The notes under the pieces: model-generated
What the model was told of the DNA's origin: nothing
Seen by the model: only the letters and a program-made list of their open reading frames with translations
Database searches by the model: none
Made by a program: the position numbers and the translations under genes
Assembly: GCA_000827495.1 (NCBI GenBank)
Contig: KN817609.1
Span: forward strand, 96,708-160,707
Length of the DNA: 64,000 nt
Reading direction: 5' to 3'
DNA from: Hypholoma sublateritium FD-334 SS-4
Lineage: Eukaryota; Basidiomycota; Agaricomycetes; Agaricales; Strophariaceae
Shown: one piece after another, positions 6,225 to 56,339 of the stretch
Layout of the letters: every line of letters starts with the position of its first letter
Numbering within the stretch: position 1 is the stretch's first letter

Positions 6225-7423
6225 TATCTGTGGACTTTGGAGAGCCAAGGATTTTGCCAACGCATGGATGAGTAAGACTTGACTGTGTTTCCCATTGGTA
6301 CATTCATCGATTCCGTCCAAGATTACGAGGAGTTTCCAGGGAGCGCCAGAGGCGTGTCCGTAAATCTGCTGGAGTGGTTTGATCACTAACATCTCCAATT
6401 GATATTCGAGGGATTGATTAAAAATGAGAGGATTGCAGTCGATGGTCTGTGTGATGATAGGTTTGGTCTCCGGGACGAGTTGGATTATCTGGTACGCGAT
6501 GGTGGACACCAAGGTCGCGATTGTGTTGCATAATGGGTCTGTGCGGCGGAAGAAGTATTTTGCGACAGGAATATTATTCTCTGCACACAACTTTACTATA
6601 GATCTTGATATTGTGGTTTTCCCGGATCCCGCAGCACCTTTGAGCCAAAGTATCCAAGTATCTCGGACGCCAGTGCCATTTATCCAATTATATATGTCGT
6701 TTAGCACAGACTCTCGCGTGTGCGGATGACATGTCAGCTGGCTCACATCGTGTGGAGCGTTATGCATAGCAGATGTTGAAACATGATCCTGCAGCAGTTC
6801 AAATCCACTTTCGTCTAGATATTTCACAAGCGATGGTCATATACGTGCTCTATTAATTTCATGAAACCAATATCGTACCACATTTTGTGAAACTCTGATT
6901 AGTGAATTGGCCACCAGTTATAACAATGTCTCTCGAATTTGCAAAGAAACCAGCAGTACCTGGTCGGTAGTGTTGATACAATTCTGAGATCATCATCGTG
7001 CATTTCTCCAAAAGATCATGCGTCGTAGGGGATGGCTGCGAATGCACGAATATATCTGTACCACCTGAGTCAGCGACTCGAGAATAAAATTGTAGTATAT
7101 ATTCTATAGGATCCGTACCTCCTTGACCATTACTTTCGAATTTATATTCGCTCAATCCGCGCGATTTCATGTATTATTCTTTCTGCACATGAACTGAGAT
7201 GATGCGCTAGAGCTCAATAATGAGCCTTTGGCAATTAATTGGTACGTACTTTGCAAGTTTATATCCTTTGGTGTGTATGAAAACATTTGAATGGTTGCTA
7301 TATAACTGAAATTCTTCATACTATTACAGGTTTGTATGTACCCAGTGTTTGAGAATAGGGTCATATGTTGTGCTTGCATCTACCCGTCTCCGTTGTGAAA
7401 TTTCACAACCATCGCTGTTGAGA

Positions 7424-7440
7424 CCCAGCGAGAAATCCGG
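7424..7440 (+). repeat. Left terminal inverted repeat of the Tnp2 element
   Basis: CCCAGCGAGAAATCCGG, matching the reverse complement of 16489-16505 at 16 of 17 positions. The flanking 7-mer GTTGAGA lies at 7417-7423. Downstream subterminal sequence (to about 7700) is rich in AAACC-type motifs that also occur inverted near 16420-16480. Confidence 0.85.
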
Positions 7441-7994
7441 AAAACTATGCCAAACATCGCTAAACCGTAGCAGGCATTTGCATTTTGTTTGGCAATCTGG
7501 CTGTAGGCGCCTTTGGTTCAGTTGAAAAGTAAACCATATAAAACAAATGTGAACAAATTCATTAAACCACAGTAAACGAGAGGGAAACAAATGTACATAT
7601 AATGCTGTACCAGCTGCTACAGTGCACCAAACCATATCTAACCAGATAAAACCCAGTGAAAACCAAATCGAACCGTACGAAACCGAATCTATAATCTAAT
7701 CGGATCACAATCAGATCACGAGAAGGCGCAAAATACAACTGAACTCACCATCGAGAAGCCAAGCGCAATCAAAGGCAGCGAGCAGTCCAATACCACAGAG
7801 AAAGCCATAAGAGAATAACCACGTAATAGAGAACAGCAAGGTAGTGAGAAACGCAGTCCGGATCCAGGCGAGCGGTGCGTGAGAAGACAGGACAAGAATA
7901 CAGCCAAGTGCGTCGAGGGCCAGTGCAAGCGCGAGCGAAAAGTTTTCAGGTAGCAATAAGATCACAACGAGAGCTTCCAGTACGGCGAGAGGTA

Positions 7995-10231
7995 TTATTT
8001 GCGCTCTTTGCTGAGCTGAGCATATTCCTGCAGAAGCAATTTTGGATTGTTAGAAAGGGAACAGATGAAGCGATGGTATAGACCTTTTGAGCGGTTTTAG
8101 GGAGCGCGCTCCACAGTACGTCGAATGAGGCAGGAGAAACTGGGTCATTTGTCTGCAAATACTTGATGTAATAGAGATTTCTAAACGAAAGAAATTACCA
8201 GCGAAGTCTCAGATGAAATAGGTACGGACTCACTTTGCCGAAGAGCTATTCGTTATTCTCTTCATTCCAGGTCCAAATACCTTTGAACGGGCGAATGCTT
8301 CCGCTTCGTCGTTACTATCTGCTACTCCCACCGAATCCGATCCTTTCACTGTGGTTTCGGGCAGCTTTCCGTCGGGCTTCATTGTATCTTTCAGAGAATC
8401 GGCTCGTCCACTGGGGCCCGCTGCTGGCCCAAACAAAGCAGCACTGTAAACGCAAGAATCAGTAAATGAACAAAAGGCCTAGGATGTCTTACAACGGATT
8501 CTCGATGGCAAGAATGGGGTTGTTGACCACTGGGACTGCTGTTGTAGAAGGAGGTGGAGCATCTTGCGATACGGAGGTGGCAGCGAATACCGGGACTGCT
8601 GGTATGGCGGTGGCATGTGACGGAGCAGTGGCAGACCTATTTTCGGCTTCGTTCACGGAGGTTGCAGCCACACTGGGGGAAATGCTGTGGGTGTTGTTTT
8701 CAAGCGCATTTTGAACTGTAGGAGACGATTCCGCGGACGTTGGTGGAGATGGAACTGGAGGAGGGGCTGCGTTACCTGCAACTACCTTGTGATGCTTGGT
8801 AGCAGGCTGTGAGTACTCACAGGGCTGTAGTTAGACTGCTTGTTTGCTATACGAGATGGCACTCACCATTTCCACAGCATCATCGGCATCTGAGCATGTG
8901 AGATCATATACGAGGGGAGGGTTTGATCGTTTACCCAGGGACTGAGAGGGAGCTTCTGCTTTACGCTGGCTGGTGGTCAAGGAGCGAGGGACGTAGATGT
9001 CGTCGTCGTCGTCGTCGTCGTTGGCATGGCGAGCTGCCGCACTGCCGCCATCGTGGTCCCACGCACCCATTGGCGAATCGCCCGCCGGTTCCATTTTGAC
9101 TCGAATCATCTCGGACTTGATTTGCTGGTGCGTCTTTTCGGTCTTGCGTGTGACTGCTCGACGGCATTGGGAAACAGCAGTCGATCCAAGTTGTCGGACC
9201 TTCCAGTCATCCTCGCACAGCCAAAGATAGGGATATTTAGCATACATTTCACGAATAAAAAACTTGGTCTCAGTAATTCCAAAATCGCCCCACTTTTCCG
9301 GAAGTGGACAGTTGCTGTCTTTGCCCATCTGTATGAGAATTGCGCGAGCAGCAGCACAGATATTCTTGGCCGTATCCCCAGTGACAATCACACCATGCTC
9401 GTCTTCGATAAAGTCGTTAAGAATGTTCTCGTTATTGAGTGCGAGCCGCGTCCCGCCGCACTGCTTTTTCTGCTGAATGGGACTTTGTGTGGGATCCAAT
9501 ACTGTTTGCTGCTTGGCTTTCGACTCGTTATATAGATTATATTGTCGTTTGGTGGGAAATCTGATCGCAGGGTAATTAGCCGAAATAAACTTGCCAGATG
9601 TTGGGATCCGAAAGGCTGCATGAGGTCCAGAATCAGCCATAGGATTGGTCTTCATTGCGTCAAGCAGTCGTTCGTAAGAATTCCTGCCGCATATATGATT
9701 AGAACGTGTAATTCGCGCATATATTTAGCATATACGCACTTCAGTTCCTTATTTTCTCCGCGCATGGACACATATGCCTTGTATAAAGACTCATATGCCT
9801 TATTTCCACAAGCTAAGAGCTCATGATGTGTAGCCGACGCCAAATCAGAGCCACGGTGTCCCTTCAAAAATCGGATTATCAACCGAGTTTCACAGAAAAC
9901 ATCACATTCTCACCAATTGTCTGTTCTCTTTGTTAGCATAGGAATCTCGACCGTGACGAGCCCACAAGGGGCTAGAGGATTTCTGGCTGCCGGCGTGCGG
10001 CTGTGCGAGAGATTGATATGCGAGATGGCTCGAAGTGCCGGCTGTGAATCCTGCAGGTTCTGTAACATCAAATAAGTCACCGGAATCATCCTCGTCAAAG
10101 TCCAAAGAGTCCCACTCCCTCTGAGTGAAGGGATGAACAGCTGTGCGAGAACTCGTTGATCGGTACATGGTAGGAGGATAAAGGAAAGAACCGGGTGTGT
10201 AGCCGGGTTCTCGTATTCCCATTTTGGTCAC
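7995..10231 (-). CDS. Transposon accessory protein with HMG-like tail
   Basis: A seven-exon gene inside the Tnp2 element. Exons are about 9914-10231, 9740-9861, 8867-9683, 8493-8815, 8234-8443, 8063-8180 and 7995-8027, with introns of about 50 bp in consistent phase. The last intron is either 35 bp or, using an earlier donor in the same phase, 57 bp. The product is about 640 aa. It has an acidic/Ser-rich N-terminus, a helical segment (ERLLDAMK), a conserved-looking block LPEKWGDFGITETKFFIREM, an Asp run (DDDDDDDD), a Pro/Ser/Ala-rich linker, and an end (FDVLWSALPKTAQK..EYAQLSKERK) that resembles the back half of an HMG box. No enzyme motif is visible. I believe similar proteins accompany DNA transposons in agaricomycetes; a DNA-binding or regulatory role is inferred only from the HMG-like tail. 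Confidence 0.7.
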
Positions 10232-10350
10232 AAATATTTGAAGTCCAAAATTTCAAGCCCCAGTTCACAAATGCATAGAACTGTAGCATAAAATGATACA
10301 CATCATATTTTACAGCTGTAGTTTATAGTACAAATTCAATTGCCAATTTA

Positions 10351-11104
10351 TCAATCTGTTTCTGATTCCGTCTTGTCTGGGTCGGTTTCTGATTCTGTCT
10401 TGTCGGGGTCAGTTTCCGATTCCGTCTTGTCAGGGTCGGTTTCTGATTCCGTCTTGTCGGGGTCGGTTTTTGATTCCATCTTATCAGGTCCTACGTCATT
10501 TTCAGGGCGCTCGGCGCCTTTAATATCTGTGGCAAATGTAACCGTTTTTTGCTCTACGACCTTCTGACAGACTGCTGCATTTGGTTGCTTCTCGGTGTCT
10601 TCAGGGAGCCCGGGAGCTTCGGTATTGGAAAGTGCTGCATTTCTCCTGGTATTTTTGCTGGTCTCGCGCAGTCGACGCCATGCAGTAAATTCAGGGAAGA
10701 TATTGTCCAGATTTTCCCACATGGCGTCCATCTTCGCCTGAAATACAGGGTCCTAAGCCTCCAGTGAGATAAATAAAAGTATGCTATCAAAGTACGACCT
10801 CACCAAGATATCAAATGATGAGCCTAATGATGAGCTGGAATCATATTCATACCGACACTTTGTGGTAGTAACTTTTGCACTGTTTTTGGATTTGACTTCG
10901 GCATTGTATTGCACTTCCGGGGCCTTGGGCATCTACAATAGCTATGAGAAAGTGATATGGACAAAATAAAATTGATACCTCTAGCTCAACCTCATCGGGA
11001 TCAGAGGTAGGAATTATTTCTCCGTCACCGACGCTCGGATGAGGACGAGGGTGCCAGATCCAGTCAGGCACATTGTCCGCTCTTGGGTCAAATAACTTAG
11101 GCAT
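10351..11104 (-). CDS. Small transposon-borne protein with DPDKTESET repeats
   Basis: Three exons (10979-11104, 10804-10932, 10351-10752) joined by 46- and 51-bp introns in phase 0 give about 218 aa. The start MPKLFDPRADNVPDWIWHPR is Trp/Pro-rich. The middle holds MWENLDNIFPEFTAWRRLRE, a likely amphipathic helix. The C-terminus is four to five tandem copies of a 9-residue acidic unit (DPDKTESET). It lies just upstream of the 7995-10231 gene on the same strand and head-to-head with the captured-fragment block. No family recognised. Confidence 0.65.
10352..10487. repeat. 27-bp coding minisatellite
   Basis: Five imperfect 27-bp units (core TCTGATTCCGTCTTGTCGGG) in frame at the 3' end of the 10351-11104 gene, encoding DPDKTESET-type peptides. 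The unit is a multiple of three, so copy-number change keeps the frame. Confidence 0.9.
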
Positions 11105-11423
11105 TTAAATAGACTAAGGAACGTCAATTGTCCATGTGTTGAAGAGTTCAAATAAGTAATGTAAGAGCAAAATTGTACAGGGAGGTATTAAATAAAGGAA
11201 AGGACTTAGAAAGCAAAGAATGCAGCCCGGGACAAACGGTCACGACGTGACGGCAGTGGACATCATCGTGACACCGCCTTCATCCCCACAACCACATTGA
11301 CACCGACATTCCATCTCGTTCTCTCTCACACAAGCACGGATACGGAACGACCTCTGGATGTGGGGAGCTTGTGTGTGAGCTGCAGACACGTCGCAACAGC
11401 AGGAGAACTCAAGAACTCACCGG

Positions 11424-11620
11424 GTGTGTTTTGCACCGCCGTCGAGAAAGGTACGCCCCACTTTGAGCTCCCAGACAGCACGACCCCAACGAGCGCACCG
11501 CCCGCCCCGCCGCTCTTGCCGATACGCACCTCCCGCTGCCCGCCGCGAGCAGCGCCAGCTCCGGCACCGCCCCCGCCCCGCTCACCCAGCTCGAGCAGGA
11601 GCGCCTCAACTGCCAAGTGT
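11424..11620 (+). pseudogene. Unidentified GC-rich gene fragment in the Tnp2 element
   Basis: GC-rich coding-like sequence (plus frame ends APLTQLEQERLNCQV) that stops just before the J-domain fragment. Its composition differs from the AT-richer transposon genes on either side, as for the neighbouring captured fragments. The source gene was not recognised. Confidence 0.35.
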
Positions 11621-11637
11621 TAATATGATATCACAGT

Positions 11638-12037
11638 CCACAAATCGGCCTCTGATAAGGACATTCGAGCCGCATATAAACGCCTGAGCAAGAAGTTTCA
11701 TCCCGACAAGAATAAGGACCCAGACGCGGAAAATAGATTCGTAGATATTGCGCGAGGTGCGTACTACATCCTTTAACCAAGNCCGGCTCGCCTGACGTGA
11801 ATACCTGCAGCATACGAGGTTCTTTCAGACGAATCAGTGAGCACTATTTGTCGTGCATGACAAGCATTCGTCTGACGATATGCCTCAAAGAAACGTCAAA
11901 TATACGATAGACATGGAGAGGTGGGACCCACAAGCCGGAATATATAATCACAATGCTAACATGACGCGTATTTCCAGGAAGGACTGAAAGCACACGAGGG
12001 AGGCCAGAATCAGCCAAACCCATTCGACGTGTTTCAG
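11638..12037 (+). pseudogene. Captured J-domain fragment (ER DnaJ, SCJ1-like)
   Basis: Four exon pieces (about 11638-11756, 11811-11836, 11891-11920, 11978-12037) with intact GT..AG introns spell most of a J-domain. They include DIRAAYKRLSKKFHPDKNKD with the catalytic HPD, IARAYEVLSDESKRQIYDRH, and the Gly-rich start EEGLKAHEGGQNQPNPFDVF. The last phrase fits the ER Hsp40 class (Scj1/ERdj3). The fragment lacks its signal peptide and all client-binding domains and runs straight into STE12 sequence. Retained introns show capture from genomic DNA, not cDNA. One ambiguous base lies at about 11782. Confidence 0.85.
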
Positions 12038-12039
12038 AC

Positions 12040-12466
12040 ACTGCGCCATCGCGCTGGGACTCGGCCGCTGCGAACGCTGCGCCGGGCGAGTACACTGCGG
12101 GCGGGTACGGCGCAGACCCGCTCGGGCTGGGAGGCATGGACCTCGCGGTGCCGCTCGGGTACGCCGCGCCGCCCGCGCATCCCGCACTCAACCGCTTCCT
12201 CCTCCCGAACCAGGAGTACGTCACCTGCGTGCTGTGGAAGGGCCTGTACCACATCACGGGCACGGACATCGTCCGCGCGCTTGTATACCGCTTTGAGGTC
12301 TGTCTTTTTTTTTTTTGCGTCTTGTGCCCGTCGACCTGTCGTACTGATAAGGATGACACAGGCCTTTGGCCGTCCAGTGCGCAACATGAAGAAGTTCGAG
12401 GAGGGCGTGTTCAGCGATCTGCGCAATCTCAAGCCCGGCGTCGATGCCTGTCTTGAGGAGCCCAAG
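12040..12466 (+). pseudogene. Captured STE12 DNA-binding domain fragment
   Basis: Two exons split by a 64-bp intron (12298-12361) encode the front of the fungal STE domain: LNRFLLPNQEYVTCVLW, LYHITGTDIVRALVYRFE, then AFGRPVRNMKKFEEGVFSDL and LRNLKPGVDACLEEPK. STE12 proteins are the mating/filamentation transcription factors below the MAP-kinase cascade. The rest of the domain and the C-terminal zinc fingers are absent. The fragment follows the J-domain piece in the same orientation and its frame is open across the fusion point near 12038, so a chimeric transcript is conceivable. Confidence 0.88.
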
Positions 12467-12495
12467 GTGCGGGTGTTACGCCGCTTGCTACGGTA

Positions 12496-12830
12496 CTAAC
12501 GATAGACGGCACTCACCAGGCACAAATCCCGGCAACACTCACGACGGCGAAATGCACAACTAATGTCAGCGTGCACGACACGGCGAGCGGAGAGCGGATT
12601 GGGTGAGGGCGTGCCGTTGGGCAGCGCAACGAGTATCTCAAGGGCTTTTGGGGGGCTGATGGAGAGCTCGGAGCATGGTGATCGACGGGTCGACACTGCT
12701 GAGACGGTCGAGCCTTGCGCAGGCGCACGGCCTCCTCGACGGGCAGTGAGCGCGCGAGTATCGTGTTGGCGTAGCGCTCATCTGTATACGAGACAATCAA
12801 CAAGGATGTACGTCTATATATCAAGTAGTG
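12496..12830 (-). pseudogene. Third captured gene fragment, unidentified
   Basis: Minus-strand coding-like stretch beginning YTDERYANTILARSLPVEEA (about 12720-12790). In another frame it continues as LEILVALPNGTPSPNPLSAR, suggesting an exon with a frameshift or a small intron. It is in the opposite orientation to the two preceding fragments and lies between them and the transposase 3' end. The parent gene is not recognised. Confidence 0.5.
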
Positions 12831-12857
12831 GAATCTATATATCTGAATATATTACAT

Positions 12858-15800
12858 TTACTCATTCTCTTGCATCCCTCCCAAACATGCCATGTCCAGT
12901 CCCATCTTTTCACATACAAAGTACCTACCATTGTGGGGATCTTTAAAAGGCACCATTGCAATGCAGCTAATGATGTTTTTCACCCGGATTACCTCGAGGG
13001 AACTGATGCCTTGGTATTTGCATACCATGAGCGCTCCGCTGGACTCTGTGAGTAAAACAGGATCAGGAGGGCTGTAGATGGACACAAGGGCGAGCGTTTC
13101 CTCGTTTCCGTCCAGTTTAGCTCGAAAAAAATACTGAATCTCGGCAAAACTTGGAGCCTTTGTGACCATATTGCGGAAGAACTAAATCTTGAAATTAGGC
13201 GAGTGTTTCCAAAAGCACTGAATAACCTGAGCTTACCATAACATTCCGTGATATACGAACTTTTTTCAGCCCTTTCGGTGCTTCCTTCCATGCAGTTCGA
13301 ACAAACTGAAGGTTTGGCAGACGGAGCCGTGCCCATTTGTGGAGGGAAAGATTGTGAGTGATCCTAACATTGTGGCTTGCGTAGAAGACTTCAACTGCTT
13401 GCCTTTCTACTTCAGATATTGGATGAGCGCAAGAATCTCCCATCAATAAAACAAAACCATCCCCGATATCTACAGTAGTGCGGGGAACGGACTGAGAGGG
13501 ATCGAGTTCGGGAACCAAGGCAACAAGGGCATTCATTTGTGCTCGTCGAGCTCCATGTTCTGCTAAATTTGCATATGGCTGGGAATGCTGCTTTATTTCC
13601 TCTGTGAGATTTCCGATAGACCGCTCCATTGGCCACTGCGTATATGTACTGCCTGGTCCGAGACGTGGGACTTCCGGGGCAAGATGTAGAAGCGCGTGAA
13701 TGCTCTGCCGACAGAAATGTATGCGAGAAGCTTTACGCTGATAGTAGAGGTCTTCAAATTCTAGAACAAATTGATGTAAAAGAGTATGGGCGTGGACAAG
13801 CTGAGTTTTTGTAACTGAGCGCTGGTGGAGAATGCGAAACCCAGCAACAAGTTTACAGTGGTTTTTCCAGTACTTGGGAGGAAGCAGCCCATAGAACAGA
13901 CCAGGTCCTAAGCCAAAAAGATAAGTCAGGAATTCCCAAGCCTTGTATCCACTGTTCATTTTCTCGGCTGGATTCCGTGGAGGTCTGTCAAAGGAGCCGG
14001 GTAGATAAGGTGTCGCATCAGCCACCCGTTGCCCGTGAGCCTTCCAGATGTCTCCAACAAGAACAAGCCAATCCCATGTTTGCTTGCTGTCTTCTGGATC
14101 ACATTCCATCGTTCCACGCCAGAGTGCAAAAAAAAGAGCGGCGAGGTTGATAATAAGGTGCATGAGATCCCCACCAAAACACCTAGGAACTGAAAGTGTA
14201 CGAGGTAAAGCACTAAAAATACTTGGCCGTGTGATTCCAGTCATTCTCCGCATACGCTGATGCTCTGCTTGGGTCTTTGATTTAAGGATAGAATTTAACC
14301 CCGCAAGATATTCAGAAACTTTGCCGATAGGAAGGTGTTTTGCATCGACGTCACCGTGATTGCATCCACCAACGTCGTAGTTTTCTGGCTTCAATAAAGC
14401 AGGATAATAATGATTAGCTCCTTCTTTCCTTCGTCCTTTCACTGGGCAGTATAACCGACATCCATAAGCCCCAGAGTGCCCAGTAAGCCCATTTAAGTAG
14501 GTGAGGCCAGGTCCGTCGGCTAGTCCCAAAAGAATAAATATGTTTGAAGTGAATGTTTTATTCTCGGCCGCATCCCAGATGGCCAAACCTTCTTTCATAA
14601 GAGCCGAGGCGTGATGAAGACCTGGGAATAAAAATGACTCGACATTGCCAGGTTTATTTGGCCCGGGAAAAAATCCCCCAGGGAATATATAGCGCTTTTT
14701 ATAACGTAGATCCGGTGCGAGATCGAGGATAATCCAAATGTAAATCCAACAATCAGATTGTTTGCTTTGGTAGAGCTGTGCGCCGTCAATTGAAAGCATA
14801 AGAACCATGTCATCATCTCGGATAGCGCCAGATTGGATGCTCTCAAGGTATTCAGACCCATGAAATATATCTTCGTATTCTTCCAGAATAATCTTCTTGT
14901 CGGGTCGGCTAGCTGCTTTTTCAAATAGAGATCGGGTGATATTTCGGCGGTATCGCATAGCCCTGGCACCCTCAGGAGTGCGCCAAAGCGACTGTAGCTG
15001 TGGGCCAATAGGAAGCGTGAGGAACTGACGCTGAGGCACTTTCTTGGTCCCACTGCTTGTTGCGAGCGCCTCGGGATCATAGCGAGGTGTCTGACATTTT
15101 GTGCATGTTTCAAGATGCGAAAACGGCCCAGTGTAAGCCATACAGGTGTTTGGACACATGTCGTGCATAATGGGGTAAACTCCAGTAATTTCTTTGATAT
15201 TTTCTTTGACTTTGTAGAGCGATGGGAGGGGTTCAAAGGCATCACCAAGTTCTCGTGACATAGCTCGATTGAAAACATCGCGTGATTTATTAAAGACCTC
15301 TTCTGATGCTGTGGTGGTGGCAGAAAAAAGTTCTATAGCTGTTCGAAGGCTCCCTTGATTATCAAATGTGAAGATCTCGGTCAATGGGTTCTGTAGTCTA
15401 TCAATAACTTCAGTGGGAAGGCAGTCATCGTCGAGGGAAGCTTGCTGGATGCGTTCCATAAATTGTTGGACAACTTTAAGTTCTTCGAGAGTAGCAATTA
15501 CAGGCGGTGTTTCAAAGTTTTCTTCAAGACCTGGAATCGGAGGATTATCTTCGTGAGGTTGGTTCAAGTCATTATGAGGTGGTTCCTGGGATTGATCGCT
15601 GGCAGCAAGTTCACGAAGGCGAACATCATCTAAGCTGCCCGCATCAGCCGAGTTTTCTCTCTCGTGCTCAAAGTCACCCTATACCGTGCATTTAGTATAT
15701 TATCCATTGCTACACATCACTGTAGTCTACATACACTATTGTAATTTTCATTTTCTAGGCCTGAAGTGTTGTCACCCGGGACATTGCCGTCGTGTCCAAA

Positions 15801-16268
15801 GAGCGGCACCGTCTGTGGCACTGGCACACCGGCGCCTAAATCCTCCAAGTCCTGTACATCTCCCAGATCTTCCCCATTTGGATTCACACCGGGGGCATCC
15901 ACGTCCATTTCATCGCCTAGGTCATGGCCCATCTCTGCTGTATATTCTGTAGTTGATTGTGATGTTGTTTGCTCTTGTCCACGTCGACATGTCAGAGGTA
16001 TGTCAGATCCTGAATGCAGCATTGGAGGGCCGGGAACGGAGAGCGGTTGAGCTTGAGAGTCTTCACCACCGCCAGAGCTTATCGACATTTGGTTTTCCTC
16101 CGCAAAAGCGGTATATGAGCCGATTGGCCCAATTCGGGCTCTAGAATGTGCGTTGTAGGTGGAGCGCGCAACCATTCGCGGCTCTGTGCGACCGCCGCGC
16201 ATGCATTGAGGACAGTCACAGGGGAAACGTGCGGGAGTAGACGAGACGGAGGTGGGGCGCGGAGCCAT
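12858..16268 (-). CDS. Tnp2-family transposase
   Basis: Three exons (15735-16268, 13237-15678, 12858-13181) with 56- and 55-bp introns in phase give about 1,099 aa, normal for this family. The start MAPRPTSVSSTPARFPCDCP precedes a Cys-rich zinc-binding-like motif CDCPQCMRGGR. An acidic Gly/Pro linker follows, then a second Cys cluster (DMCPNTCMAYTG...CTKCQTPRYDP). The Tnp2 core has DDDMVLMLSIDGAQLYQSK, CWIYIWIILDLAPDLRYKKR and GPNKPGNVESFLFPGLHHAS, then GGDLMHLIINL and QWPMERSIGNLTEEIKQHSQ. The C-terminal exon carries FAEIQYFFRAKLDGNEE and YQGISSLEVIRVKNIISCIA. No stop or frameshift is visible, so it may encode a working enzyme. It would act on the 7424/16505 ends in the nucleus. Confidence 0.92.
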
Positions 16269-16488
16269 GTTGGTCGGCAGTCGTTCAAGTTGCGGGAGGG
16301 CCAGCTATGCGAGGTTAGTCGTACGAGCTTTGCATCGGGTTTGCATCGGCTCAGAAGTACTCGATTTCATTTCAATGCTACTTCGATTACTCTACGATCA
16401 AATTGAGGTGTTTCTACACCTACGGTTTGATTTGGTTGTGTAGTGTTGTGCCACGTTATACGATGTTAGCGCGGTTTGGCCCGGATTT

Positions 16489-16505
16489 CCGGATTTCTCA
16501 CTGGG
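16489..16505 (-). repeat. Right terminal inverted repeat of the Tnp2 element
   Basis: On the minus strand it reads CCCAGTGAGAAATCCGG inward. GTTGAGA follows immediately at 16506-16512, duplicating the 7-mer at the left end. Confidence 0.85.
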
Positions 16506-16512
16506 GTTGAGA

Positions 16513-19534: not shown

Positions 19535-21878
19535 TCATGCGGTATCGACGTCTGGGTTGAGACCGCGCGGCGTCTCTCCAATTGCCGCCATAAATCTTTC
19601 GAAGGTGATTCTGCCATTGTAAGTAGTAAAATCGTAGTCTGTATCTTCGTCGTCGCCGGCAGAGCTAGCCTCGCTTATTCCATTGCGGAACATGCGAGAT
19701 AAGGGAGTGATCCATGCACGCCAGAGGTCAGAGAACTCCGGGAGGCAATATTCCATCGATTTCGACGGGGGCATGAATAAAAATGCTAGTTTCAGCTTTT
19801 GTGCGTCCTCTCCGTTCCACTTGGCGAGTTCGGGAGCCGTGACGAGCGCCCCTCTACTGTATTTGTAATGAGCAGCGGCCCAAACGAGAATATAAAAGAA
19901 CGACTCGAGGTCGTGGCGATAAAGGTGGACCGTAGGGGTGGATGAAGGTGCGTCCAGAAGGTCATATGCCATGAAAGGACGCGTTCCTGTGAGGTGATGA
20001 TGGTGGCTATTTCCGGAGTTGATGGCTTCATCCTCGTTTAGCATCGACGCCATATCGAAATCGTTCAATATACCGTGCGATGGCTGAGGTTTGTTGAGCT
20101 CCGGAGCATTTGTTCCAGAGTGCACGAAGTACTGCTCGCTGACTTCGTCTGGCACCCGGTCCGTCTCGCCTGGTCGGTATATCATGAGGTTATTCTCGCT
20201 GATGTCGCGGTGGAGAACTTTCCCGGTTGTGTAGCAATGGTAATGACCTGGATGGAGAACATCAGTCGAGCCTGGCAATAATGTGCGATTCGCACTCACA
20301 CTCAAGGCAGTCAAGGAACGCCTTCTTGAATTCGTCAACGTTACGCGCTTTCCATATGTTGGCATAGCCCGGGTTCACGATGACATGCAGATCGCGGTCG
20401 ATAGTCCGGACATGCTCGTCATCATTTGTGATCTTTCCCGTATCACGAACAGCATCGCGCATTCTCGACCTCGGGAGATCCAATTGAGCAGCCGTATATT
20501 TTGCAGAAAATACCGGTTGGGGAAGGAATTTTCGCCAGTACTCCGGAAGGGCGCCGCGAAGGTGTGAAAGAATTTCGGCTTCCGATTTACGCGTATTGTA
20601 TTGCCAGCTCATCTTGAGCGCGTGTAGGTTGGCGAGAATAATTGCGTCCCGTATACCGACAAGCACTGTAGCGACGCAGGTACCGCGACCTACAATACCG
20701 GAATATCTGTAAATATAGGCGACCAAAGGGAATATATACTGTTTGATGGAGCTGGAGCCAGAGATGGGGAACATGTAGCATTTCTCCTTGGGGCTCGCCG
20801 AGGGTTTCAGGAAAGGAAGAACGGATCGTTCGGTGATGGGTTTACCGGGCTGGGGAGTGACGAGTTTGTATAGGTACGGATCGAAGCCAGCTTGCTTCAT
20901 GGTACACTGACTGAGGGCAAAAAGAGAGAGACCGAGCGATAAAATCCCATCGTCGGTGCTGAAATCGAAAGTCGTCGTTCGCTGGACGGCTGTTCTGTCG
21001 AAGTACCAGATCGTGATCCAGGATTTGTCAATCAGGAAGCCAGTGGTGTAATGTCGGCTTCCTGTAGCTAGGCATTCGAGGGCGTATGTGAAAAGCTGCG
21101 CATCGTCACCGTTGACTGCAATACGCCGCCGTTTCGTATTGTTTTGGGTGGTCGATGTAGCATGCGCGTCGGATATTTGAGAGTGTGGCCTCTTCAAGCC
21201 TCTGCGCGCAGTACCACCTGAAGTAGTGCGTTCCTTTGCATTCGTTAAATATAGACCCTCAGAATGGGTGGCGACCACACCGGAAGAAGACGAGGCGCCT
21301 GAAGACGGGGAAAGATGACGAGCCACATCTTCGCTCTCTGCGATTGGGTCCGGCGCCGGCACCCGAGCATCCTTCTTTTTGAATTCAAAACTACATCGTA
21401 CATCGTCCCACTCGGGCTTGTAGCCTTTGGTTTGCTTGAACATGTCCAACATATCGGGCTTCCTCCTCCTGTCGTGCATGAAGAACAGGTTACTCGAGAG
21501 CTCTCCGTTGCCTTTGTTGTCCCAGAATTCCGTGGTAATCGCTTGGTCTACGTCCAGCCCCAATGTCTGGCAGATACTAGCCACCAACGTCCCAGCCAGC
21601 TTTCGGAACGGAAAATGAAGAGCAGGTTCTCGCTCGCGATTGAGTATCGATGTGTTGTAGTCGGAAATGAAAAGCTCGACATTCGGTGATGTATGGAGCT
21701 TCGATTCGCTAATAGTCGAGATGGTGGCTGCAGAGAGGCCCCAAACCTCCGTCACAAATGTCTTGATATCGACCTCGCGAAGGATATGGCCCTCGACATC
21801 CTTTCGTAACAATGCTTTCATTAAGTCGGCGTTGGCACTGTTGGAACTAGCACTTCTGCTGATCGTTGGTGTAGACAT
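19535..21878 (-). CDS. FunK1-type protein kinase, copy A
   Basis: Two exons (20300-21878 and 19535-20247) joined by a 52-bp intron give 763 aa. ATG at 21878 is chosen because the longer open frame to 21926 begins with GTG, and copy B starts at the equivalent ATG. FunK1 is a fungal expansion of atypical protein kinases. Seen here: an N-terminal helical region, a nuclear-localisation-like KRRR, the motif CHYHCYTTGKVLHRDISENN (HRD catalytic loop, about residue 540), LNDFDMA in place of DFG (about residue 590), and TGTRPFMAYDLL as the activation-segment end. Residues typical of the family are present, so activity is plausible. Its 5' third differs from copy B by about 10%, while the rest is identical. 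Confidence 0.9.
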
Positions 21879-53995: not shown

Positions 53996-56339
53996 TCATG
54001 CGGTATCGACGTCTGGGTTGAGACCGCGCGGCGTCTCTCCAATTGCCGCCATAAATCTTTCGAAGGTGATTCTGCCATTGTAAGTAGTAAAATCGTAGTC
54101 TGTATCTTCGTCGTCGCCGGCAGAGCTAGCCTCGCTTATTCCATTGCGGAACATGCGAGATAAGGGAGTGATCCATGCACGCCAGAGGTCAGAGAACTCC
54201 GGGAGGCAATATTCCATCGATTTCGACGGGGGCATGAATAAAAATGCTAGTTTCAGCTTTTGTGCGTCCTCTCCGTTCCACTTGGCGAGTTCGGGAGCCG
54301 TGACGAGCGCCCCTCTACTGTATTTGTAATGAGCAGCGGCCCAAACGAGAATATAAAAGAACGACTCGAGGTCGTGGCGATAAAGGTGGACCGTAGGGGT
54401 GGATGAAGGTGCGTCCAGAAGGTCATATGCCATGAAAGGACGCGTTCCTGTGAGGTGATGATGGTGGCTATTTCCGGAGTTGATGGCTTCATCCTCGTTT
54501 AGCATCGACGCCATATCGAAATCGTTCAATATACCGTGCGATGGCTGAGGTTTGTTGAGCTCCGGAGCATTTGTTCCAGAGTGCACGAAGTACTGCTCGC
54601 TGACTTCGTCTGGCACCCGGTCCGTCTCGCCTGGTCGGTATATCATGAGGTTATTCTCGCTGATGTCGCGGTGGAGAACTTTCCCGGTTGTGTAGCAATG
54701 GTAATGACCTGGATGGAGAACATCAGTCGAGCCTGGCAATAATGTGCGATTCGCACTCACACTCAAGGCAGTCAAGGAACGCCTTCTTGAATTCGTCAAC
54801 GTTACGCGCTTTCCATATGTTGGCATAGCCCGGGTTCACGATGACATGCAGATCGCGGTCGATAGTCCGGACATGCTCGTCATCATTTGTGATCTTTCCC
54901 GTATCACGAACAGCATCGCGCATTCTCGACCTCGGGAGATCCAATTGAGCAGCCGTATATTTTGCAGAAAATACCGGTTGGGGAAGGAATTTTCGCCAGT
55001 ACTCCGGAAGGGCGCCGCGAAGGTGTGAAAGAATTTCGGCTTCCGATTTACGCGTATTGTATTGCCAGCTCATCTTGAGCGCGTGTAGGTTGGCGAGAAT
55101 AATTGCGTCCCGTATACCGACAAGCACTGTAGCGACGCAGGTACCGCGACCTACAATACCGGAATATCTGTAAATATAGGCGACCAAAGGGAATATATAC
55201 TGTTTGATGGAGCTGGAGCCAGAGATGGGGAACATGTAGCATTTCTCCTTGGGGCTCGCCGAGGGTTTCAGGAAAGGAAGAACGGATCGTTCGGTGATGG
55301 GTTTACCGGGCTGGGGAGTGACGAGTTTGTATAGGTACGGATCGAAGCCAGCTTGCTTCATGGTACACTGACTGAGGGCAAAAAGAGAGAGACCGAGCGA
55401 TAAAATCCCATCGTCGGTGCTGAAATCGAAAGTCGTCGTTCGCTGGACGGCTGTTCTGTCGAAGTACCAGATCGTGATCCAGGATTTGTCAATCAGGAAG
55501 CCAGTGGTGTAATGTCGGCTTCCTGTAGCTAGGCATTCGAGAGCGTATGTGAAAAGCTGCGCATCGTCACCGTTGACTGCAATACGTCGCCGCTTCGTAT
55601 TGTTTTGGGTGGTCGATGGAGCATGCGCACCGGATATTTGAGAGTGTGGCCTCTTCGAGCCGCTCCGTGCGGTAGCACCTGAGGTGGTACGTTCCTGTGT
55701 ATTGGATGATGATAGACCTTCAGAATGGGTGGCGACCACACCGGAAGTGGACGAGGCGCCTGACGACGGGAAAAGTTGACGAGCTACATCGTCGCTCTCT
55801 GCGATTGGGTCCAGCCCCTGCACCCGAGCATCCTTCTTTTTGAATTCAAAGCTGCATCGTACATCGTCCCACTCGGGCTTGTAGCCTTTGGCTTGCTTGA
55901 ACATGTCCAACATATCGGGCTTCCTCTTCCGGTCGCGCCTGAAGAACAGGTTACTCGAGAGCTCTCCGTCGCCTTTGGTGTCCCAGAAGTCCGTGGTAAT
56001 CGCTTGGTTCAAGGCCAGCCCCAATGTCTGGCAGATACTAGCCAACAACGTCGCGGCCAGCTCTCGGAACGGCAAATGCAGAGCAGGTTCTCGCTCGCGA
56101 CTGAGTAGCGATTTGTTGTAGTCGGAGATGAAAAGCTCGACATTCGGTGAAGTATGGAGCTTCGATTGGGCAATGGTCGATATAGTGGCTGCAGAGAGCC
56201 CCCAAACCTCCGTCACAAATGTGTTGGTGTCGACCTCGCGAAGGATATGGCCCTGGACATCCTTTCGCAATGATGCTTTCATCAAGTCGGCGTTGGCACT
56301 GTTGGAACTAGCAGTTCTGCTTATCATTGGTGTAGACAT
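53996..56339 (-). CDS. FunK1-type protein kinase, copy B
   Basis: Exons 54761-56339 and 53996-54708 with the same 52-bp intron; about 763 aa. The catalytic HRD loop (VLHRDISENN), LNDFDMA and the activation-segment end are identical to copy A. The first third of the protein differs at scattered positions (for example SRTASS versus SRSASS at the start, ASLRKDVQGH versus ALLRKDVEGH). The divergence begins abruptly at 55542. The ATG at 56339 matches the chosen start of copy A. No frame damage. Confidence 0.9.

Follow-up and report, generated by a model that had tools for sequence, protein, structure and literature searches.

A Tnp2-type DNA transposon of Hypholoma sublateritium carrying a mosaic of host gene fragments, with a DnaJ piece nested in a STE12 piece

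The window analysed here is a 64,000-nucleotide stretch of the Hypholoma sublateritium FD-334 SS-4 genome (GCA_000827495.1, KN817609.1, positions 96,708 to 160,707); it sits on contig C92 of the 281 contigs (46.1 Mb) that were searched. An apparently complete Tnp2-type (PF02992) DNA transposon spans positions 7424-16505 of the window. It has terminal inverted repeats (TIRs) flanked by 7-bp target duplications, and the frame of its Tnp2-type transposase is open once spliced (Table 1). The main exon of the transposase gene, tnp2, matches Transposase_21 (PF02992) at 1.7e-9 (37.7 bits against a cut-off of 28.6), and the predicted model, whose splice sites were picked by hand, reads through 1,099 aa over two introns without an internal stop. 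An alternative choice of exon and donor was rejected as it produced 57 stops; the other donor site gave the open frame. Within the accessory gene of the element, a 27-bp tandem repeat of about five copies (window 10355-10516) encodes a repeated SETDPDKTE motif.

Table 1. Features of the Tnp2-type element and of its cargo (positions in the window)
Feature	Position	Strand	Remarks
Left target site duplication GTTGAGA, 7 bp	7417..7423	.	Same bases as 16506-16512
Left terminal inverted repeat (CCCAGCGAGAAATCCGG...), 40 nt	7424..7463	+	83% complementary to 16466-16505
Open frame in the element, 297 aa	8831..9724	-	Without Pfam match
Accessory gene of the element	10351..11104 (ATG 11104-11102)	-	C97 and C197 elements have related sequence in the corresponding place
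Cargo interval	11250..12840 (borders approximate, set by eye)	.	Not present in the sisters C97 and C197
Fragment of STE12 exon 1 (5' part)	11477..11607	+	73% to C10:510573-510703
DnaJ fragment: exons 2-4 with introns 2-4, preceded by the 3' end of intron 1 and followed by a portion of exon 5	11607..12038	+	Matches C11:387113-387544; PF00226
STE12 fragment: remainder of exon 1 (up to 12297), its intron (12298-12361), exon 2 (12362-12466) and the beginning of intron 2	12039..12474	+	73% to C10:510138-510540
Electron transfer flavoprotein beta (ETFB) fragment, decayed	~12559..12771	-	Aligns to C107 gene
tnp2 transposase gene, 1,099 aa	12858..16268; exons 16268-15735, 15678-13237, 13181-12858	-	Spliced translation; PF02992
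Right terminal inverted repeat	16466..16505	-	
Right target site duplication GTTGAGA, 7 bp	16506..16512	.	

The ends of the element, CCCAG..CTGGG, recur in four short elements: C75:107725-109359, C29:208615-210251, C28:36463-38106 and C113:129078-130554, the last of which is truncated by the contig end, shows only one end and was left out of the count of target duplications. All four elements with both ends visible (those of the window, C75, C29 and C28) are flanked by a 7-bp duplication. Among PF02992 elements with these ends, the duplications read GTTGAGA, ACTTACA, ACTGACA and GTTGAGC (window; L041, L043-L046). The interiors of the four short elements match one another at a rounded 100%, so these copies appear to have moved recently, perhaps by means of the transposase of the window element; a DNA search of the genome with the interior of these 1.6-kb relatives returned those four places only. 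By transposase identity, the two closest relatives of the window element lie on C97 (76%) and C197 (71%). A 474-aa transposase piece from an NCBI assembly (P0133) is 97% identical over its alignment, which covers 55% of the query; a near relative or another strain thus probably has the same element family.

It is the interval between the accessory gene and tnp2 that sets the window element apart from these two sisters: from the accessory ATG (11104) to the tnp2 stop (12858) it measures 1,753 bp here, whereas the corresponding distance in C97 and C197 is 110 and 132 bp, respectively. Because the intervals of both sisters examined are so short, about 1.6 kb would have been gained by the window element or its lineage; the alternative would be a loss in each of the two relatives, the direction of the change being judged from these two elements. 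The additional DNA is a mosaic: a STE12 fragment on the plus strand, with a DnaJ fragment of the same orientation nested in it, is followed by an ETF-beta fragment on the minus strand. Three stretches, at about 11250-11476, 12475-12558 and 12772-12840 and amounting to approximately 380 bp of cargo, matched no source, and one protein search with its left part (11210-11476) matched only itself. No direct or inverted repeats of at least 12 nt bracket the cargo. A preliminary description made from the letters of the window had proposed that an SCJ1-like J-domain with three introns, a STE12 DNA-binding fragment with its intron and at least one further fragment in opposite orientation had been captured, as genomic DNA, from separate host genes within the transposon. 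This outline agrees with what we found for each of the pieces. It had also advised looking for the same fragments in other copies of the element. The two closest sisters are devoid of the cargo, and neither the cargo nor the complete element, when searched against the whole genome, revealed the STE12/DnaJ composite a second time.

The DnaJ fragment is nearly indistinguishable from a gene still present in the genome: its 432 positions and those on C11 comprise 430 identical letters, one shared N (window 11782) and one mismatch (11986). In its spliced form the piece matches PF00226 at 1.7e-17. It begins within intron 1 and stops in exon 5, such that three introns (2-4) are kept whole alongside the 3' end of the first. 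The C11 gene, modelled over its first five exons, has an open frame, a hydrophobic first exon and a whole J-domain (of the two acceptors tried for its exon edges, one left the frame open), and we take both it and the captured J-domain to be SCJ1-like. Since the captured piece is near-identical to the C11 gene, introns included, it appears to have been copied recently and from the DNA of the same species. As the gene remains in place on C11, the DNA was copied rather than moved, and the kept introns point to genomic DNA as the source of the captured pieces. The preliminary description had placed the J-domain beside the STE12 piece; instead, it lies between two parts of STE12 exon 1, where it replaces 32 bp, and its junctions show an overlap of about 1 bp or none with the two comparison genes, the 32-bp loss and the junction microhomology being measured against the C10 STE12 gene and not against the actual donor.

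The STE12 fragment, which matches PF02200 at 6.8e-31 and has 121 codons of DNA-binding exons without a stop, has a more distant origin. Comparison with the STE12 gene on C10 over 116 codons gave a dN of 0.073 and a dS of 1.14 (NG86) or 0.079 and 1.25 (LWL85), and the 73 codons of the DNA-binding part gave a dN of 0.018 and a dS of 1.65; these dS values above 1 are near saturation, and the estimate of constraint leans largely on the DNA-binding part. The C10 gene as direct donor is ruled out by a dS above 1 with a dN of 0.07. Thus, of the two donors that alignment to the genome's own genes had been expected to reveal and date, that of the recent DnaJ piece was found on C11, but the present STE12 gene is not the other; the two loci nevertheless make clear that the pieces come from separate genes and not from a single host gene. 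Given that under free drift dN would approach dS, the low dN caps drift since the departure from the C10 gene at a few percent, so the source had probably been separate from that gene for long, under selection, and was captured late.

The captured STE12 protein is closest to the C10 gene of its own genome (86%, as against at most 74% for others among the 40 best-scoring sequences from a set of the own gene and 120 of 2119 matches), and the two form a clade with a support of 0.986 in a tree that took in the 49 of these 120 matches carrying both anchors, the remaining 71 being dropped. The best protein matches of the STE12 gene are from gilled mushrooms, e.g. Agrocybe, Cyclocybe, Panaeolus and Gymnopilus. 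The protein branch leading to the captured piece (0.27) is longer than that of the C10 gene (0.07), which would speak against a simple clock. The source would be either a lost or unassembled STE12 copy of the lineage or the gene of a near relative. Further STE12 copies did exist, as decayed remnants on C10 and a weak match on C187 attest. The remnants on C10, two in number, broken and reordered, lie within 50 kb of the gene at C10:510 kb, in C10:461.7-463.7 kb (L042; at 462.5 kb) and in C10:491-500.9 kb (L038; at 496-497.7 kb). Over 201 ungapped columns with the remnant at C10:496 kb, the window agrees with the remnant alone in 22, with the C10 gene in 31, the gene with the remnant in 26, and all three differ in seven, no pair being clearly closest. 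Beside this remnant, 21 single Ns fall within 2.2 kb (L038 7090-9287), perhaps a collapsed repeat.

The antisense piece was assigned by several lines of evidence. Its frame-merged reading reached the ETFB gene on C107 at an E-value of 0.12 only; alignment at the DNA level then gave a local score of 39, where 300 shuffles reached no more than 20 and the other strand gave 13, while the C107 gene itself matches PF01012 at 9.7e-31 and ETF-beta chains in the PDB, which confirmed the assignment. The frame-merged query (88 aa) had no Pfam match and found no relative in a protein-database search limited to proteins of 0.55-1.75 times the query length, a range that excludes full-length ETFB, and in the genome one translation of the piece hit nothing beyond its own sequence and one chance match. 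Indels that break the frame, together with a 39-bp gap, suggest that the ETFB piece is either older or derived from an already broken copy. As regards parent genes elsewhere in the genome, the DnaJ gene is found on C11, and for the STE12 and ETFB pieces the genome yielded no direct donor, only the diverged relatives on C10 and C107.

Taken together, the cargo was probably assembled by stepwise copying of host DNA into a Tnp2 element during break repair, resulting in a mosaic of STE12, ETFB and nested DnaJ. Host DNA would have been taken up in the short interval between the transposase gene and the next gene of the element, with the pieces entering in steps, copied from unrelated templates by abortive gap repair or as templated filler. 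Such copying is suggested by the gene left in place, the kept introns, the 32 replaced bp, the nesting and the near-absence of microhomology, the repair mechanism being read from the junctions only. The STE12 piece would stem either from the gene of a relative or from a STE12 copy that had diverged, the DnaJ piece would have come last, in this species, and the whole would be passenger DNA. The captures in this one fungal element seem to differ in age: the ETFB piece is decayed, the STE12 piece is from a diverged donor, and the DnaJ piece is very recent, with its source persisting on C11. Captures of this kind make it possible to read the copying mechanism from junctions.

In its present state the STE12 sequence is continuous with the DnaJ piece, an arrangement that would also fit a one-step capture of a STE12 pseudogene that was chimeric beforehand: DnaJ sequence would have patched a decaying copy while this was still at the STE12 locus, and the element would have taken up the chimera afterwards. 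In favor of this scenario, broken remnants are found at C10:462.5 kb and at C10:496-497.7 kb, not far from C10:510 kb, where the full-length STE12 frame lies; however, no other STE12 match in the assembly has a DnaJ patch, and the captured DNA-binding exons, stop-free and with very low dN, are unlike the decayed remnants, and we consider it unlikely. Lower still do we rate the chance that the cargo is a separate nested mobile element, e.g. a Helitron, that landed in the Tnp2 element. Its mosaic nature and mixed orientation would be in keeping with this, as would the gene capture by Helitrons described for Pleurotus in the available part of PMC4289320, whereas no stretch of the cargo is repeated elsewhere in the genome and no repeats of at least 12 nt bracket it, though Helitrons need neither. 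An assembly chimera, in which the DnaJ stretch was wrongly joined into the element, is very improbable. The same single N occurs in both DnaJ copies, as if the assembler had handled them as common sequence; the 9.9 kb of locus L037 contain a single N, and it falls within the duplicated 432 bp. Yet single Ns are also common to other near-identical pairs (L011/L012, L030/L031, L034/L035), a habit that is not strict, since the identical pair L027/L028 has no Ns and L038 has 21. Moreover, the DnaJ piece is cleanly nested, its copies differ at 11986, just 52 bp from the right junction, and the overlap of its junctions with the sequence that was replaced is about 1 bp or nil, which leaves no common word that could have caused a misjoin.

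There is also the question of a functional chimera, with a J-domain/STE12 fusion product or an antisense regulator under selection, as the preliminary description had raised the possibility of a fusion transcript. An open reading frame (11960-12499) does run across the junction at 12038, as had been noted, and the DNA-binding exons of STE12 are open. However, the frame beyond the junction is not that of STE12: a fusion protein was rejected because the DnaJ frame does not continue into that of STE12 exon 1, and exon 2 comes back into the DnaJ frame only if the 64-nt intron is retained. The captured J-domain also misses exon 1 of its gene, and with it the start codon and first helix. A spliced product would accordingly be predicted to hold no STE12 domain, and the sequence encodes no in-frame product joining both domains. 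With the composite being single-copy and its ETFB part decayed, we give a selected function hardly any credence, and stepwise copying of passenger DNA is preferred.

The position of the cargo relative to tnp2 has a parallel elsewhere in the genome. At 28 of the 55 Tnp2 matches, a kinase match to PF17667, which we take to be the FunK1 family, lies within 4 kb 3' on the same strand, in 27 cases at a distance of 1.2-1.9 kb (e.g. L018/L050, C205), and at none of the 55 is there one within 4 kb 5' or on the opposite strand; the 55 include at least one likely redundant contig pair (C44/C64), and some are at contig ends, where neighbors are invisible. As 107 out of 192 candidates were scored, the 121 PF17667 hits, in about 81 clusters, are a lower bound. 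Of nine frames adjoining tnp2 that were scanned directly against Pfam, three were above the PF17667 cut-off and two more matched it weakly. The window element has its mosaic where other Tnp2 matches have the kinase. At one such tnp2-kinase locus, that of C205, an inverted-repeat search found no convincing element ends. The window itself has two PF17667 kinase genes (about 19877-21119 and 54338-55577), 34 kb apart and neither inside the element; their scores are equal or nearly so, and thus they are likely a recent duplication.

These associations raise the prospect that FunK1 may be a standard cargo of Tnp2 elements, which, if true, would help explain the expansion of FunK1 in mushrooms. Lineage-specific duplication is mentioned in the accessible portion of PMC3203195, which makes no tie between FunK1 and transposons, and among the open-licence papers searched none was found that brings together FunK1, transposable elements and Agaricomycetes. 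Tentatively, and with more doubt than conviction, one might go further and view the region 3' of tnp2 as a recurrent cargo bay, occupied by a FunK1-type kinase in half of the cases and here by a growing mosaic of host genes, in which STE12 sequence from another species or a lost paralogue was followed by a local DnaJ patch.

With regard to known types of transposons, the element combines features of several. Carriers of the Pack type are non-autonomous and without a transposase of their own. The preliminary description had likened the cargo to Pack-type transduplication, and the likeness extends to the presence of fragments between TIRs; but the composite was found once in the genome, with no multiplication of a fragment along with the element, and the carrier keeps a tnp2 gene whose spliced model is an open frame of 1,099 aa. 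Helitrons, typified by a Rep/helicase protein and 5'-TC..CTRR-3' ends, are devoid of inverted repeats and target duplications, both of which are present in the element as a whole, and for an element nested within it this distinction is inapplicable. The Transposase_21 domain is as in CACTA/EnSpm elements, while the 5'-CAC..GTG-3' ends and the 3-bp duplication of that group are absent. For Plavaka, the excerpted text of PMC12730594 gives the ends TGT..ACA or CATCA..TGATG with duplications of 2-3 bp, and for the CMCT clade 2-5 bp, and the window element (CCCAG..CTGGG, 7 bp) shows neither these Plavaka ends nor a 2-3 bp duplication. By its ends and target duplication it is therefore neither a typical CACTA nor a Plavaka element, as these are described in that part of PMC12730594.

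Among the open-licence papers listed, no report of host gene fragments in a fungal Tnp2 element was found. The present element shows how such transposons pick up and shuffle host DNA. The following comparisons refer to the available portions of the papers cited. Like the plant CACTA (En/Spm) and Pack-CACTA elements, it is a Tnp2/Transposase_21 element with unrelated host gene fragments outside its coding sequence, and for the plant elements fragment capture has been attributed to abortive gap repair (PMC8978399). It differs from them in its fungal host, in having CCCAG...CTGGG ends and 7-bp duplications instead of CAC-type ends and 3 bp, and in that one fragment is nested in another and occurs in one copy only. 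With the Helitrons of Pleurotus and other fungi it shares the presence of captured host gene pieces in a mushroom transposon (PMC4289320). A TET/JBP gene has been captured by EnSpm, Plavaka and further transposon lineages of fungi, and these, too, are Tnp2-related elements in Agaricomycetes that took up a gene; however, they encode a dioxygenase gene thought to aid escape from silencing (PMC12730594), whereas the window element carries non-coding fragments. Among the literature compared, the nearest fungal case of captured host sequence is that of the hAT elements with histone H3 in Pyrenophora and Pseudocercospora, where host gene sequence likewise lies inside a fungal TIR transposon (PMC6710886). 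Those elements carry one gene, intronless in Pseudocercospora, in tens or hundreds of copies (PMC6710886), whereas the window element, with its different transposase, holds genomic fragments of three genes, with introns kept and without amplification.
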